From positions 1 to 21,887 of the forward strand of contig CALARM010000397.1 in NCBI GenBank assembly GCA_937888925.1: a stretch of 21,887 nucleotides of DNA, in the 5' to 3' direction. Source of the stretch: an uncultured Synergistia bacterium (GTDB taxonomy: Bacteria; Eremiobacterota; SpSt-956; JAKJGF01). Numbering within the stretch: position 1 is the stretch's first letter; the number at the start of each line of letters is the position of its first letter. The notes below the pieces were generated by a model. The model saw nothing but the letters and a program-made list of their open reading frames with translations. It had not been told where the DNA came from and did not search any database. Positions 2,126-10,830 of the stretch are shown here, piece by piece. Both the position numbers and the translations under genes were made by a program.

Positions 2126-3061
2126 TTATATACTCACTTTTTCAGTTCCAATTAATCGTTTAATATTATCTTTAAAGGCTTCCTGCCATATATTATATTT
2201 ATTTAAATCCTTCAAATTATGATAACATTTTTTTGAGCAAGCAACCTTCTGACTATTCCAATTTAGATACTCAGGTATCTCCAGAACTCCAACTGGAAAA
2301 GCTATAATCCTATGTTCCCCTCTTATTTCAGAAGAATCATTAACTATTCTGATCATATCATATTCAAAAAGTCTTAAATCTAACGAGGCTTGCTGTAATT
2401 CAGCGTGACCGGGCAGAGCAAAATAATCAGTATAAATTTGACTTGTTGTTACTGTTTCAGCTATTATATGAAATTCTTCCCTATCTATTTCAATCTGTTC
2501 CTCCGTAATTACTCCTGCCTCAAAATTCTCTTCTGCCTGTTGTAAATTAGCCATATTAGAAAGATAATCAGCCCACATTTCACTTTCAAAAAGAGCAATA
2601 TACTCCGGAGTAATTTTCAATTCTTCTAAAATTCTATTTATCTCTCCCTGAAGTTCATCTCTTTCCTGATTATTCTGTTCTATTATCTGCTCTATTATCT
2701 CTCTAGATTGTTTACTATATTGATTATGAATGAAATATCTTTTTATCCTTTGAGGTCTATCAGCGTTGATTATTTTTCCCTCTATATCCTCAAAATTAAG
2801 TTCCCAGGAGTCAACGCCTGAATTATTATCTCCTTTTGTCTTTATTTTTCCGGTTTCTGTAATTTCTATAATCCTATGGCAGACGTGTTTATTTCCAGTT
2901 ATAGACAATGATTTTGTTACAATAATATCTCCAATCTCAACTTCATCCACAGTATGGTAAATTCCTATATCTACTATATCACCATCGAAAAACTGAGGTA
3001 CCATACTATTTCCTATATACATAAAAGTTTTAATTGGAATTATTATTACTTCATCTGACAT
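2126..3061 (-). CDS. Soluble ER-type S24/S26 signal-peptidase-like protein with long C-terminal extension
   Basis: Residues 1-105 carry the conserved boxes of the Sec11/SipW (Ser-His) branch of signal peptidases: GNSMVPQFFDGD with nucleophile candidate Ser19, CHRII with His62, and KGDNN (76-80) with Asp78. There is no Lys in the bacterial LepB position. The usual N-terminal membrane anchor is absent: Ser19 is preceded only by a short beta strand, so the protein is probably cytosolic. Residues ~112-311 are an acidic, Gln/Glu-rich helical extension, part coiled coil, ending with a C-x3-C (CSKKC), which I do not recognise. The gene starts at the base after the kinase gene's stop (ATATAAATG) with a GAGGAAGTG site and is last in the operon. 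Processing of a peptide made with the neighbouring kinase-like protein is inferred. An S24 regulator-like autoprotease is the alternative, though no DNA-binding domain is seen. Confidence 0.72.
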   Translation of the reverse strand: MSDEVIIIPIKTFMYIGNSMVPQFFDGDIVDIGIYHTVDEVEIGDIIVTKSLSITGNKHVCHRIIEITETGKIKTKGDNNSGVDSWELNFEDIEGKIINADRPQRIKRYFIHNQYSKQSREIIEQIIEQNNQERDELQGEINRILEELKITPEYIALFESEMWADYLSNMANLQQAEENFEAGVITEEQIEIDREEFHIIAETVTTSQIYTDYFALPGHAELQQASLDLRLFEYDMIRIVNDSSEIRGEHRIIAFPVGVLEIPEYLNWNSQKVACSKKCYHNLKDLNKYNIWQEAFKDNIKRLIGTEKVSI

Positions 3062-3076
3062 TTATATCACTTCCTC
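3057..3076 (-). promoter_or_regulatory. Ribosome binding site of the peptidase gene, copy of the tail tube gene's
   Basis: The minus-strand sequence AGGAAGTGATATAAATGTC, from SD through codon 2, is identical over 19 bp to that of the tail tube gene at 19271-19289. A shorter relative, GGAGTGATATAAATG, precedes the gene starting at 5454. The sharing ties the last gene to the phage operon. Confidence 0.6.
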
Positions 3077-3898
3077 TATTTTTTTCCAATATTGACCATC
3101 TTTTGTGAACTTTAAAGTAAAAACAGGTAATGGTTTTATGAAATTACAGACATTATTAAATACTTTTATACGAAAAATTCTAACATCTTCTTTAGAAAGA
3201 GATTGAATATAACCTGGCATAGCCTCATATATTGATTGATTTAAAAGCATTAAAGCCTTATCTTTTTCAATTGGTAAAACTTCATCTTTTTCATATTTTT
3301 CAAGAAAGAAAAGAGCTTTGATAGGTACACTTCTCTTGACGTTCCATCTCTTCTTTTTCTCGTATTTTTTTGTAGTGAAGTTTGTCCAGGTAGGAAAAGG
3401 GTGAGCTTTGCCATTGAGCATTAAAGAAATATCGTCAGATAATGCTCTCCATGGCTTTTGAATAATTTTTGCACAGGTAGATTTTCCCGATGAATTTGTA
3501 CCCACCAAGAGAATTCCTTCCCCTTTTTTCTCAAGTAAAGTGCTATGAATAGGTAAACCACCACAGGAGATAATTTCATTAAAAACAGGATAAAAAAGTC
3601 CGTGTTTCGCCAAGAGGAAATCTGCCTCTTCACCTTTTTTAATTATCACTTCACAAAGGATATCCTTTGAAATATTATGAATAAAGTAACGAATGTAACT
3701 ATTTTTATACTCTTTCCAGTTCTCTTTAAAAGGATGATATTTTTTAATAATTTCCTCAACCTTTCCTCTGGAGATAATAAGTTTTGAAACAGCTTGACCG
3801 GGTTGTAAATTCATAATACCTGTAAGATTATCAATAAAATCTTTATCTGTTTTACCTGTTATAAGTTGCCACGATAAATTATCTATTCGTAAAACCAT
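3062..3898 (-). CDS. HPr-kinase-like (ScmC-type) P-loop protein
   Basis: This protein has 278 residues from the ATG at 3898. A TTG one codon earlier is possible, but the ATG makes a classic TGATG overlap with the preceding gene and has GGAG about 8 nt upstream. Residues 115-141 contain the HprK-type core: a GGLPIHST strand with His118, then the Walker A loop GTNSSGKST (133-141). SDD (154-156) matches the Walker B / catalytic-Asp region of HprK. PFPTW (167-171) resembles SynChlorMet ScmC and RiPP-cluster HprK homologues as I recall them. The N-terminal ~110 residues are variable, and no DRTK/HprK-V signature is visible. HprK proteins phosphorylate serine on HPr, and homologues in lasso-peptide clusters phosphorylate a precursor peptide. 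No HPr, PqqD or precursor gene is seen here, so the substrate is unknown. A kinase in a phage late operon is unexpected. Confidence 0.7.
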   Translation of the reverse strand: MVLRIDNLSWQLITGKTDKDFIDNLTGIMNLQPGQAVSKLIISRGKVEEIIKKYHPFKENWKEYKNSYIRYFIHNISKDILCEVIIKKGEEADFLLAKHGLFYPVFNEIISCGGLPIHSTLLEKKGEGILLVGTNSSGKSTCAKIIQKPWRALSDDISLMLNGKAHPFPTWTNFTTKKYEKKKRWNVKRSVPIKALFFLEKYEKDEVLPIEKDKALMLLNQSIYEAMPGYIQSLSKEDVRIFRIKVFNNVCNFIKPLPVFTLKFTKDGQYWKKIEEVI

Positions 3899-5454
3899 CA
3901 ATAAGCTCCAAAATGGTTAATTGGAATATTTAACCATTCATTTGTTATTCCTTTGAAAAATACATTCTGCCGGTTTACTCCGTAAGAATTCGTCTGCGTT
4001 GAAGTCAGAGAGTCTATCACTCTCCAGGTGTCTCCTGCATCTTCTGTTACCGCAACGTGCTTTTGTGTATCAGTAGATGAAACTTTTGTCGGTGACATAG
4101 AAACAAGAATTTTATTACCTATTATATTTTTAAATTCTACAATTTCTTGTTTTGTATAGAAAGTTTTCTTTAAAGTCCAAGTAGTATAAGGGCTTCCATT
4201 ACATTTATAAATCTTTCCTTTTTGATCTCCTGCTATAATAGAACCATCGGAGAGTAGGAGGAAATATCTTACTTTATCTGCACCGCTTAAAGTTGCTTTT
4301 AATGTCCAAGTATTTCCTGCATCAGTAGAGAGTTTTATTGCTCCAAACCTGCCGCCCATAAGAACATTATCCCCTCCGAGATGAAGCAAACTTCTCACGT
4401 TAAAACTATCAAAACTTCCTTTATCAGTCCAGTTCAGACCTGAGTCTATAGTTTTATATATACGTCCGCCATCCCAGGTACCAGCAAGTAATATACCACC
4501 GCTCAGATTACACATAGAAGCTACTCTCTTTTGGGTTCCCAATGTTGCCTTTAAAGTCCATTGAGTTCCATAATTAAGAGTTTCATAAATTTTTGCACCG
4601 GCTGAGCTTGTTGAACCAACACCGGCCCATATATGACCACTTCCGAAGTCCAGAAAACAGCGAACACATGTAGCAGTCCCTAATCGTCCCTGGTCTGTCC
4701 AGTTCAGCCCCCAATCTTCAGTATAAAAAACTTTGCCGGTAGATTTCGTACCAATCATAGCTTTACCACCGCCAATGTCAATTATTGTGTAAATATATTC
4801 CCCGGTTGCAAGGGTTTTTTTATACTCAGTAATAATGTAAGATAAATCTTCTATCGTAACAGTACCGGCATTTCCACCTGTTCCACCACTGGCAGTAATA
4901 TTACCGGAAAGAATAAAGTTTCCAACGTAATAAACATGAACGGTTCCTCCATTTTTCCCACTCGCCCCATCAGCTGTAACCTCTCCCGTAACTCCTACTG
5001 TAATATTGCCAGAACAATAAATATTTATAATTCCTCCATCTGTAGCAATTCCACCTGAGTTAATTGTGAAACTTTTTAGATTCCAATCGAAGGCATTATT
5101 AAAATCTATATCTCCTGAATTTACAATCTTTTGATTTTTCTTTCCAAAGAAACCATAGATATTACAAGTGATATTTCCTGCTCTGGATATACCTTTTGAG
5201 TCTAAAGAGATAATGCCATTTATAACAGCATTTCCATTTATAATTATATCCCATCGCTCACATCTATTTGAAAGTGACCAGGTTGCACCTGCATCTATAG
5301 TCAGATTTTTACATCTTGTTATTACAGCGGGACCATCCTGAAGACTTTCGATATTTGTATTCTCAGTAATATGAATATCTTGTAACTCGCTATCTTTAAA
5401 GAAAATAGAACTATTATTAAGATAATCAAAAGCAAGATTTTTTATTTGTTGCAT
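3898..5454 (-). CDS. Receptor-binding tail protein candidate: beta-helix plus Asp-box (BNR) propeller
   Basis: This 518-residue protein has two parts. Residues ~25-205 are short beta strands with repeated Gly/Asn turns (INGNAVINGIISLD, SGNITVGVTGEVTADG, SGNITASGGTGG), as in right-handed beta-helix or adhesin stalks. Residues ~220-490 carry Asp-box motifs (S/T-x-D-x-G-x-T-W) at 245-252, 292-299, 335-342, 376-383 and 470-477, with a degenerate one near 418-426, spaced about 40-50 residues apart. This is a sialidase/BNR-type six- or seven-bladed propeller. No sialidase Arg triad or FRIP motif is evident, so sugar binding is likelier than hydrolysis. It lies beyond the lysis genes. An adhesion role is inferred from architecture and position. 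Its stop codon overlaps the start of the kinase-like gene. Confidence 0.7.
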   Translation of the reverse strand: MQQIKNLAFDYLNNSSIFFKDSELQDIHITENTNIESLQDGPAVITRCKNLTIDAGATWSLSNRCERWDIIINGNAVINGIISLDSKGISRAGNITCNIYGFFGKKNQKIVNSGDIDFNNAFDWNLKSFTINSGGIATDGGIINIYCSGNITVGVTGEVTADGASGKNGGTVHVYYVGNFILSGNITASGGTGGNAGTVTIEDLSYIITEYKKTLATGEYIYTIIDIGGGKAMIGTKSTGKVFYTEDWGLNWTDQGRLGTATCVRCFLDFGSGHIWAGVGSTSSAGAKIYETLNYGTQWTLKATLGTQKRVASMCNLSGGILLAGTWDGGRIYKTIDSGLNWTDKGSFDSFNVRSLLHLGGDNVLMGGRFGAIKLSTDAGNTWTLKATLSGADKVRYFLLLSDGSIIAGDQKGKIYKCNGSPYTTWTLKKTFYTKQEIVEFKNIIGNKILVSMSPTKVSSTDTQKHVAVTEDAGDTWRVIDSLTSTQTNSYGVNRQNVFFKGITNEWLNIPINHFGAY

Positions 5455-5467
5455 TTATATCACTCCA

Positions 5468-5770
5468 TTATTCCAGAGTTTCACAATAAATCTTATCGTT
5501 TAGCGTTCCCAAAACATATAGAATATATGGATCTATAAAATGAAAAGTTCTCACTTCTCCAGGGGAGAGGTAATCAGAATTAGTTCCGTCAATAGTGGAA
5601 CCGCCATACCAGACATCACCACTATTATTTTTATCAGCACGAATAATCAACATTTTTTTTGAAGAAGATGTTGCCGATAACCTTTGTGCCACAGTGGTGA
5701 CAGTTACTTTCCAGTTATCGACAGTTTCTATCATATATTTTGAAGATACTTCTTGAGTTGAATGTAACAT
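5468..5770 (-). CDS. Small virion-type beta protein of unknown role
   Basis: This 100-residue protein is mostly predicted beta strands. The pattern VTVTTVAQRL...KKMLIIRAD..NSGDVWYGG..LSPGEVRTFHF...LYVLG resembles a family of small phage structural proteins in which a strand-rich domain ends with a GExxxF turn. The family is recalled only by pattern. It sits between the endolysin (4-bp gap) and the receptor-binding candidate (13-bp gap), with a clear AAGGAG site before the ATG. A decoration, tail-tip or fibre-associated role is plausible; a lysis role is less likely because it has no membrane segment or signal peptide. Confidence 0.6.
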   Translation of the reverse strand: MLHSTQEVSSKYMIETVDNWKVTVTTVAQRLSATSSSKKMLIIRADKNNSGDVWYGGSTIDGTNSDYLSPGEVRTFHFIDPYILYVLGTLNDKIYCETLE

Positions 5771-8651: not shown

Positions 8652-9442
8652 TATTCTTCATCCTCACGAATTTCAAAATACCATCTCGTTTCAGGTCTTG
8701 GCTCTGCACCTTTTAATTCTATTGCCTGTATTCGCTCTATTTCGTCTATAAAATTATGAGTATCAATTATCTCACACCAGTCACCGAGTTTTGCAGTAAA
8801 AACCGGTGGAACTGAAGCAGAGATACTTAAATTTTTCGTAGAGTCGTATATAAAGTGATCTGCAAGGAGTCTTGCCTGTTCCACATTTTCAATATACGGA
8901 CTGACGAATATATCAGGAGAAGCTCTCTCACCGTTCCGCAAATCATCTCTATGGTAAGTATCTATTCTTGCTTCATTTATACCTTCTGCCAAAACTACCT
9001 GGTGAGAAAACCACTGAGTTTCCTTTTCTTCATCTTCTGAATTTGTGATTTCATCTGCTATTACGTCACCTTCTGACGATTGAAGAATTTCCTCCACTTT
9101 CTCTACTTCTGCTAGAGTTGAAGGAGCAGGAGGAGGAGGAGGGGCAGAATATCCCTGATACATAACCATCCCGTTTTGAATATTTGGTTTATAAAGAGAA
9201 CGTCTATAAAACCCCACTCCATACCATTCTTCAGTAGTTACCTGATAGTTACAATTAATTCCGGTACAGGTAATAGTTCCATCTGACTCTGTAGCATCTC
9301 CAATAGTACTGCCTTTTGAAAGTCCTGAAACCCTTACGGAACTTTTAACCGCTTTTTCTCCGAAAGATACAGGAATAGAACCTGTAAAAACAGGCATTAC
9401 TCCTCCAGGGTCTGGACTTGAAACTGCAATAGGACTTCCCAT
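8651..9442 (-). CDS. Tail hub, C-terminal part
   Basis: This 263-residue protein contains, at ~170-250, a pattern typical of the last domain of phage tail hubs (gpD/gp27-like): ENVEQARLLADHFIYDS, then SASVPPVFTAKLGDWCEI and a final DEIERIQAIELKG strand. Residues 1-95 are beta-rich with a serine/glycine start. A proline hinge PPPPPAP (101-107) and an acidic segment (110-142) separate the halves; the hinge is encoded by a GGA-type triplet run at about 9128-9142. Its ATG overlaps the stop of the upstream hub gene (TAATG), and its stop overlaps the next start in the same way. I read it as the second half of a hub that other phages encode as one protein. Confidence 0.6.
   Translation of the reverse strand: MGSPIAVSSPDPGGVMPVFTGSIPVSFGEKAVKSSVRVSGLSKGSTIGDATESDGTITCTGINCNYQVTTEEWYGVGFYRRSLYKPNIQNGMVMYQGYSAPPPPPAPSTLAEVEKVEEILQSSEGDVIADEITNSEDEEKETQWFSHQVVLAEGINEARIDTYHRDDLRNGERASPDIFVSPYIENVEQARLLADHFIYDSTKNLSISASVPPVFTAKLGDWCEIIDTHNFIDEIERIQAIELKGAEPRPETRWYFEIREDEE
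9128..9142. repeat. GGA triplet run encoding a poly-proline hinge
   Basis: The plus strand reads gg aggaggaggaggggc, the complement of CC(T/C) codons for five consecutive prolines in the hub C-terminal protein. Its length may vary by slippage in whole codons. Confidence 0.6.
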
Positions 9443-10830
9443 TATTCCGTTACCTCTTCTTCTACTGTAATGAGTCTGGAATATCTCTGAACTATTTTTT
9501 TATTTATCCTGAGAACCTGACTGCTTGACTCTTCTGGTTCTCCTCTGAGTATTCTTTCTTTCAATATATATTTTGCTACATCTGGCTTCTCGTAATCTAT
9601 TGGTTTCTTTCTGATAATTAAAGTTAATGTTCCGTTTATAACTTCAATCAACCATTCTGCCGGGATAACTTCAGTTAACTTCTGAATTACTTTTATTCCT
9701 TCTTCGTTTTGACAAGTCACATCTGAACGAACCAAGTAATCAGGAAAATCCAGTATCACCGGGAAATATTCTTTACTCCATTCACTCTGGTCTTTATCAA
9801 CTATTTTCTTACATATATCTTTTATTATTTCGTGACAGGATATAGGCTGTTGAATTATTACAGGAAATCGGGAGTTAATCTTTTGATTTGAAATATATCT
9901 TTTAGTTGCCGAGTCATAAGAAAAAGAAATGCCTTTTAAATATGCCTGTTCGCCATTTACCAGGATTTTCGTAAAACCTGAAATATAATCAGGTTTGGTA
10001 AGATTACTGCTCTGAAATACAGTATAATAATCTTCTCCGTCAATGGTTTCTTTTGAACTCGCTACAGGCAAAAGGGTTTCTTCAACGCAATAAGTTTCAA
10101 GGTCAATTTTATTGAAAAGATATTCTGTTATTTCATCTCTCCCGGAAATGGTTATTTTCTTACCAGGGGGAGTTCTGGCGGTTATAACCAGACGTGGAAA
10201 ATCTGATATAATACCTGTGAGAGTATTAGCATAGACGGATTGCCATTTTAAGCGAAGGTATTTTCTTGTTTCCCTTCGTGGAGAATATTTACCCTCTTTA
10301 AATAGTCCACCGAAAAGAGCGTTATCCGGGTCAGTAAATTCTCTATTCCAGTTATCAAGCGTTAAGTTCCACTTTATTCCTCCGTTTATTGCTGATTTGC
10401 AATAAGGGGCAATTAGATATTTTTGAGGTATTTCTATCTCAGAAGGAGATAGTTCAGGAACTTGGATAAATGCTCTTATTCTGAACCGAGAATAATATTC
10501 TTCCGGGAGAGGGGCTTTTATAGTTCTGGTTTGATAACCTCCTTCTATGCTTACAGAAGGATTGAAAGAAGCAAAATATTCAGTATATGACTCAATACTC
10601 CCTCCATCTTCTGCGAGGGTAGAGGTTTTAAAACTGTCTATAACTTCATAATATCCTTTAATTTTTGGAAAACCTGAGTTTGGAATAGAAAAAGAAATCT
10701 CATAATAACCCTTCTCATTACTGCAAAGGTCATAACCCGGGATAACTTCATAATATCCCTGGTGAGGAAGTTCTAAGTCATATCCTTCTACTACTTCGTA
10801 ATATCCTATAGTCCTCTCAAGTTCTTCCAT
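9442..10830 (-). CDS. Tail hub, N-terminal part, with GYYE tandem repeats
   Basis: This is a 462-residue protein. Residues 9-62 are an unusual tandem repeat with GYYE at 9-12, 25-28, 41-44 and 59-62, and GYDL after the first two. Residues ~140-460 resemble tail hub / late-control-D proteins: IKWNLTLDNWNREFTDP, a strand with ARTPPGKKITISGRDEITEYL, and VIQKLTEVIPAEWLIEVINGTLTLIIRKKP. Such proteins form the trimeric hub at the tail tip that tube and fibres attach to. It follows the 474-aa structural gene via a 39-aa peptide whose frame overlaps its start by 25 bp, and it is coupled by TAATG to the downstream hub half. The fold assignment is by pattern only. Confidence 0.62.
   Translation of the reverse strand: MEELERTIGYYEVVEGYDLELPHQGYYEVIPGYDLCSNEKGYYEISFSIPNSGFPKIKGYYEVIDSFKTSTLAEDGGSIESYTEYFASFNPSVSIEGGYQTRTIKAPLPEEYYSRFRIRAFIQVPELSPSEIEIPQKYLIAPYCKSAINGGIKWNLTLDNWNREFTDPDNALFGGLFKEGKYSPRRETRKYLRLKWQSVYANTLTGIISDFPRLVITARTPPGKKITISGRDEITEYLFNKIDLETYCVEETLLPVASSKETIDGEDYYTVFQSSNLTKPDYISGFTKILVNGEQAYLKGISFSYDSATKRYISNQKINSRFPVIIQQPISCHEIIKDICKKIVDKDQSEWSKEYFPVILDFPDYLVRSDVTCQNEEGIKVIQKLTEVIPAEWLIEVINGTLTLIIRKKPIDYEKPDVAKYILKERILRGEPEESSSQVLRINKKIVQRYSRLITVEEEVTE
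10645..10806 (-). repeat. Coding tandem repeat, GYYE-V/I-x-x-GYDL, about 16 residues per unit
   Basis: Four GYYE motifs are spaced 16, 16 and 18 residues. On the plus strand the matching DNA is a recurring cttcataatatcc-type motif. It lies at the extreme N-terminus of the hub gene. Confidence 0.85.

Follow-up and report, generated by a model that had tools for sequence, protein, structure and literature searches.

A ScmC-family kinase and a soluble S26 peptidase as a probable module of tailed phages

The analyzed stretch of DNA, in the following termed the window, comprises 21,887 nucleotides of contig CALARM010000397.1 from an uncultured Synergistia bacterium and carries two adjacent genes in the late region of a tailed phage, one for an HprK-like kinase and one for an S26-type peptidase without membrane anchor (Table 1). 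By sequence, the kinase is ScmC, a family known from SynChlorMet (SCM) peptide cassettes. The pair is very probably a phage module, and it is phage-adapted rather than an artefact of a junction, because the block containing it recurs in a second phage (locus L001), the phage-type ScmCs form one group, and the phage-type peptidases have a C-terminal half that is missing in the chromosomal ones. In full, we propose with a probability of about 40% that the kinase-peptidase part of a SynChlorMet cassette was captured by tailed phages and most likely acts on a co-translated tail protein of 518 amino acids (aa). The family, the fold, the kept catalytic residues, the gene coupling and the recurrence as a block were directly observed.

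Table 1. Features of the window that belong to the kinase-peptidase block
Feature	Position	Strand	Basis or remark
Soluble SEC11/SipW-type S26 peptidase with phage-type C-terminal half	2126..3061	-	TIGR02228, SEC11A/C profile, catalytic residues
ScmC-family HprK/PEPCK-fold kinase, 278 aa	3062..3898	-	TIGR04249 match; alternative TTG start at 3901 (279 aa)
518-aa propeller/BNR-like tail-region protein, candidate substrate	3898..5454	-	60% identical to L001 homologue
100-aa protein, upstream limit of conserved block	5468..5770	-	52% identity over 84 aa to a frame in the contig of L001
DNA-level similarity with the L001 phage (apparently exchanged module)	2561..5643	-	blastn, five pieces, 65-75% identity

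The initial annotation had described an HprK-type P-loop protein with the motifs GTNSSGKST, SDD and PFPTW, and the gene (3062-3901, minus strand) as well as all three motifs were found. Translation from the ATG at 3898 results in the size of the database copy P0001, while the TTG at 3901 adds one residue. Database copies of this ScmC are located on contigs of up to 66,072 bases. The suggested link to SynChlorMet was borne out and could be narrowed to ScmC: the protein scores 193.6 bits (E=4.6e-57) with the NCBIfam profile TIGR04249 and passes the curated cut-off of 125 bits for membership, and the four other phage-type ScmCs scored (L001/P0015, P0016, P0018 and P0019) also lie above it. With the HprK profile TIGR00679, in contrast, 19.9 bits were determined at a cut-off of 240, which places the protein outside the HPr kinase/phosphatase family, although it shares with HprK and PEPCK the fold and the layout of His, Walker A and Asp-Asp. 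In an alignment of 20 sequences, His118, Lys139 and Asp155 are invariant and Ser140 and Asp156 nearly so; the His, the Walker A Lys/Ser and the Asp pair align to the HprK structure 1jb1. The 50 matches listed in a VIA fold search comprised PEPCKs throughout and no HprK, and HprK (1knx) was among the matches listed by Foldseek.

The peptidase gene starts with ATG and encodes 311 aa. The first approximately 105 residues form an S26 core of the SEC11/SipW type (SEC11A/C by profile), in which Ser19, His62, Asp78 and Asp84 are invariant among 15 aligned proteins, in agreement with the SEC11C alignment. The score of 49.4 bits (E=4.5e-13) with TIGR02228 is slightly below the membership cut-off of 51.85 bits; the relatives P0012 and P0014 reached 45.7 and 64.3 bits. 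SEC11/SipW signal peptidases are anchored in the membrane. The window peptidase shares their Ser/His/Asp core but comprises no hydrophobic segment, as its maximal 19-residue Kyte-Doolittle mean is 1.06, compared to a threshold of 1.6 and a value of 2.51 for the TrkA control; the description as a Sec11-type Ser/His peptidase without anchor thus holds true. Eight of nine chromosomal S26 partners measured also showed no segment of at least 1.6, and the one in L011 (1.94) lies inside the core. The nickel superoxide dismutase maturation protease (TIGR02754), which is soluble, has a Ser/His/Asp S26 core as well and is matched weakly by two chromosomal ScmC-type partners. A further difference to SEC11/SipW are about 200 additional C-terminal residues in the phage-type peptidases, for which no evident counterpart is found in the chromosomal ones. 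According to a structural model of low confidence (mean predicted local distance difference test, pLDDT, of 67, low in the core), this half is mostly helical, with helices at about 117-235 and a small alpha/beta end. A BFVD fold search with this weak model gave nothing at E<=0.001.

The window contains the late region of a tailed phage, encoded on the minus strand. As assumed before, phage genes were recognized, encoding a capsid E-type major capsid protein, a virion morphogenesis protein, a tape measure and an amidase/SLT protein. They are followed by the genes for the 100-aa protein, the 518-aa protein, ScmC and the peptidase, and then by a TrkA-type potassium channel gene. The coordinates of the reading frames, the TGATG overlap and the abutting peptidase gene were confirmed: the ScmC start codon ATG overlaps with the TGA that ends the 518-aa gene (TTGATGG), and the ATG of the peptidase comes immediately after the ScmC stop (ATATAAATG). 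In both the window and L001, an SD-like (Shine-Dalgarno-like) GGAG precedes the ScmC ATG and falls within the final codons of the 518-aa gene, and both phages show gapless coupling with SD-like stretches within the preceding gene. The 518-aa protein gave a weak match to Sortilin-Vps10 below cut-off; its designation as receptor-binding protein is an assumption.

L001 is located on the 37,082-base IMG/VR contig G018 and carries these four genes in identical order, i.e. 100-aa protein, propeller-like protein, ScmC and S26. This block sits in the middle of the phage genome and is followed downstream by two small open reading frames (ORFs), an amidase/SLT gene and a serine recombinase, with a CI-like repressor further on; based on the latter two, L001 looks like a temperate phage. 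The position at the end of a tail operon, which the initial annotation had given for the pair, therefore applies to the window, while in L001 the pair precedes the amidase/SLT gene and the integrase. Between the two contigs, the 518-aa protein is 60%, the peptidase 58% and ScmC 46% identical, and the 100-aa protein 52% over 84 aa. Five other proteins match with 24-39% identity, mostly partially, no match between the capsid proteins was obtained at E<=1e-3, and no DNA similarity outside 2561-5643 was detected (blastn, E<=1e-5). Identities of 46-60% in the block compared to 24-39% elsewhere, together with a DNA likeness confined to the block, are what a module exchange between unlike phages would leave, in support of the earlier proposal of a mobile module. 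The recurrence beside phage tail genes, named before as evidence for such a module, was directly seen in one further phage, namely L001. Homologues confined to host loci with a prophage boundary were not what we found, since L001 holds the block inside a phage; nor were the motifs lost, as L001 keeps Walker A, SDD and Ser/His/Asp with the variants AYPFPTW and GKSKC. ScmD, ScmE and ScmF gave no match in G018 (profiles TIGR04248/04250/04251). The tail region of the L001 phage also encodes a Hint-domain-like protein (L001 4336-5193; PF13403 and PF07591, both below cut-off).

The protein search gave 195 ScmC proteins, 120 of which were listed. Among those listed, at least seven phage-type ScmCs (P0002, P0015-P0020; 45-63% identical) were found besides that of the window. 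P0015-P0019 each lie on a contig equal in size to one with a phage-type peptidase (P0015, 37,082 bases; P0016 and peptidase P0009, 24,006; P0017 and P0008, 9,153; P0018 and P0010, 6,726; P0019 and P0012, 43,029). The pair hence appears to be present on five metagenome contigs in addition to that of the window, one being that of L001 and four deduced from the equal sizes; on one and the same contig it was directly seen for the window and L001. A careful tree of 69 rows places the seven phage-type rows in one group with 100/100 support (P0020 left out), and a quick tree of 57 rows unites eight phage-type rows with a Shimodaira-Hasegawa-like approximate likelihood ratio test (SH-aLRT) value of 98. 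Five phage-type tree rows were flagged for odd composition, so that a common AT-richness may add to this grouping. The aligned phage-type copies have retained the catalytic residues. Six phage-type ScmCs compared are 46-83% identical to each other, and the divergences of ScmC and peptidase correlate with r=0.86 over 15 pairs, which are not independent. With the chromosomal relatives, the window ScmC shows 20-35% identity in the aligned set and 28-40% for the non-phage rows of the protein-search list. Searches of 50,697 GenBank phage records with two ScmCs, two peptidases and the 518-aa protein gave no match, nor did a search of plasmids with ScmC. Scans of viral sequences, one of them with stretches of the window's own sequence, showed the pair on the L001 contig only; such pattern scans can miss relatives, and one missed L001. 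L002 and L003 were dropped as relatives, since their viral-scan match comprised the S26 core alone.

A scan of genome contigs yielded 18 ScmC-like loci. Twelve of these (L004-L015) come from 11 genomes that each contain a match above the ScmC cut-off; additional places above the cut-off, outside the loci counted, are G005:C77 and G009:C279. The claim that HprK homologues are paired with S26 peptidases in chromosomal cassettes was confirmed, as ScmC is directly followed by an S26 gene in eight of the 12 loci (L004, L005, L006, L007, L009, L010, L013 and, with broken frames, L015). In L011 and L014 it lies in the same cluster without being adjacent, which amounts to 10 of 12, while none was seen at L008 and L012. 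This neighborhood in most chromosomal loci indicates that the kinase-peptidase pairing is old. Among the 18 records, nine matched ScmE, seven ScmF and seven ScmD, in some genomes at a distance from ScmC or on a different contig; only matches over cut-off were counted, since each of the 14 control genomes also gives matches below cut-off with the ScmE and ScmF profiles. Just upstream of ScmC, L006, L007, L008 and L011 contain precursors with a [WY][EQ]KPx[LI][IV]DL leader and a Cys/Gly-rich core, and L013-L015 looser candidates. PF14907 nucleotidyltransferase genes follow downstream in L005, L007 and L010, and L007 comprises an ABC (ATP-binding cassette) transporter. The 380-aa ScmC of L011 (9548-10690) carries an N-terminus resembling the SCM precursor leader (MKWKIPLLIDLNGK...), perhaps due to a precursor-ScmC fusion or a misplaced start. 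At three of the six remaining loci (L017, L019 and L020), a divergent HprK-like kinase that does not reach the ScmC cut-off has an S26-like gene in its vicinity; a PqqD-related match lies beside the kinase in L017 and L020, in L019 one was recognized by eye, and L020 holds a PEP-CTERM protein.

Compared to these cassettes, the window shares ScmC above cut-off, its order before a soluble S26 peptidase and the same catalytic residues, but differs in its phage late region and in the C-terminal half of the peptidase. Furthermore, no ScmD, ScmE, ScmF, precursor or NTP_transf_5 was recognized in it. Among its 23 proteins no PqqD or radical-SAM Pfam match was obtained, and a six-frame leader scan gave no convincing precursor, the same outcome as noted before for PqqD, radical SAM and an obvious precursor. 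The full SynChlorMet cassette, with ScmD, two radical-SAM enzymes and a precursor nearby, was found neither in the window nor in G018, and no precursor, PqqD or radical-SAM gene was recognized in the window or L001. Two leader-motif matches in the scan of window and L001, both in the window, were rejected, one being a 15-codon frame and the other lying inside the large tail gene 9442-10830. The codon pattern CxxxCxxC occurred once in the window at a chance mean of 0.41. Cys/Gly-rich short segments amounted to 0 of 419 in the window and 2 of 748 in G018, both lacking a leader, using a loose filter which gave 1 to 26 matches in each of six chromosomal control loci.

The phage has kept only kinase and protease, their genes are translationally coupled to that of a tail-region protein, and the peptidase has a new half; this is most simply explained by a retargeting of the pair to this protein or to the virion. 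The catalysis, the substrate and the purpose of the pair are inferred. The kinase-peptidase part of a SynChlorMet-type cassette would have been captured long ago and would now travel with the gene of the tail-region protein. ScmC, with its HprK/PEPCK fold, is expected to modify a polypeptide by phosphorylation at Ser or Thr, and cleavage of a cytoplasmic polypeptide is expected for the soluble SEC11-type peptidase; in chromosomal cassettes both presumably act on the precursor. In the phage, the new substrate would most likely be the translationally coupled 518-aa propeller-like protein, whose trimming or charge could be altered before assembly, with the phage-type C-terminal half docking the peptidase to its target. 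It is conceivable, but rather doubtful, that this RiPP-tailoring pair (RiPP, ribosomally synthesized and post-translationally modified peptide) serves specifically to mature a receptor-binding tail protein and has passed together with it between unrelated phages, so that phosphorylation and clipping tune host recognition.

Several observations weigh against the 518-aa protein as target. It contains no SCM leader or Cys/Gly core, its gene is known in the window and L001 only, and these are the two contigs shown to be phage. The operon position does not prove a substrate, as such places also hold cargo genes. P0002 (4,789 bases) and P0020 (a fragment of 1,735 bases) lie on short contigs without a matched peptidase, and the peptidase relatives P0013 and P0014 are without a size-matched ScmC among the 120 of 195 proteins listed. 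Kinase and peptidase genes may thus separate, and the peptidase may occur alone.

This could also point to a structural or scaffold-type virion protein which uses its S26 core for self-processing and is regulated by ScmC, for which the helical phage-type half would fit. We consider this improbable, since the S26 core occurs in chromosomes without that half; the missing BFVD relative counts little in view of the weak model. Somewhat more weight is given to the pair as lysogenic-conversion or takeover cargo acting on another host protein, e.g. in superinfection exclusion or envelope change. The accessory position beside tail genes, last in the window before the TrkA-like channel gene, and the temperate appearance of L001 are in line with such a role. 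However, it seems rather unlikely, because the pair has no own transcription unit but is translationally coupled to a tail-region gene in both phages, and PADLOC on seven proteins gave weak matches only (best E 6.7e-4, PtuA, to the peptidase).

Slightly less likely still is an action on a host-made SCM-type RiPP, which the phage would exploit or disarm by completing, inactivating or releasing it. The chromosomal partners of the family, a Cys/Gly-rich precursor, a PqqD relative and two radical-SAM enzymes, were not recognized in the phages, so that a host cassette could supply the substrate. On the other hand, the low identity of the window ScmC to chromosomal relatives, the different C-terminal half of the peptidase and the coupling to a structural-region gene, which suggests late expression, argue against it. 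A chance junction with host SCM genes at a prophage end, or a decaying passenger, is very improbable: the pair does represent the outermost phage genes in the window, adjoining a presumed host gene, but L001 contradicts this with the same block inside a phage, and the phage-type copies keep their catalytic residues and form one tree group.

For the proposed phosphorylation of a polypeptide by ScmC, the lasso peptide kinases offer a comparison. HprK homologues of lasso clusters phosphorylate the linear precursor at its C-terminal Ser, largely irrespective of the remaining peptide sequence, and this phosphate can be extended with sugars by a nucleotidyltransferase (PMC8498205). Like ThcoK, ScmC is an HprK-like kinase of a peptide cluster, and a nucleotidyltransferase is found both in phosphoglycosylated lasso clusters and in the chromosomal SCM loci L005, L007 and L010 (PF14907). 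By analogy, ScmC beside PF14907 in chromosomes would fit a lasso-type phosphate/sugar chemistry. Unlike the lasso kinase substrate, the printed SCM precursors do not end in Ser, and the window holds an S26 peptidase instead of lasso enzymes, none of which was found among its 23 proteins by Pfam.

The literature search gave no report of a phage ScmC-S26 pair and nothing under SynChlorMet, and it yielded no experimentally tested function for either ScmC or the associated peptidase. The pair is a conserved phage variant of a known chromosomal pair, unreported in the literature searched. Since the phage version comprises two genes and one co-translated partner, the set of candidate substrates is small, and if the tail protein is the target, enzymes of peptide natural products can be redeployed on virion proteins.

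A Clostridia metagenome-assembled genome contains HprK-like, PqqD, NTP_transf_5 and CxxxCxxC-motif genes (L021, 8364-15800); ORFs upstream of this cluster gave no Pfam match and by eye resemble phage baseplate or holin genes. The window itself comprises no tRNA and no Rfam match. Beside its phage block lie the TrkA-type potassium channel gene (876-1955), whose Pfam domains are complete, and a 202-aa ORF without family (21-629); both probably represent the host flank, which would place a prophage end near 1956-2125.

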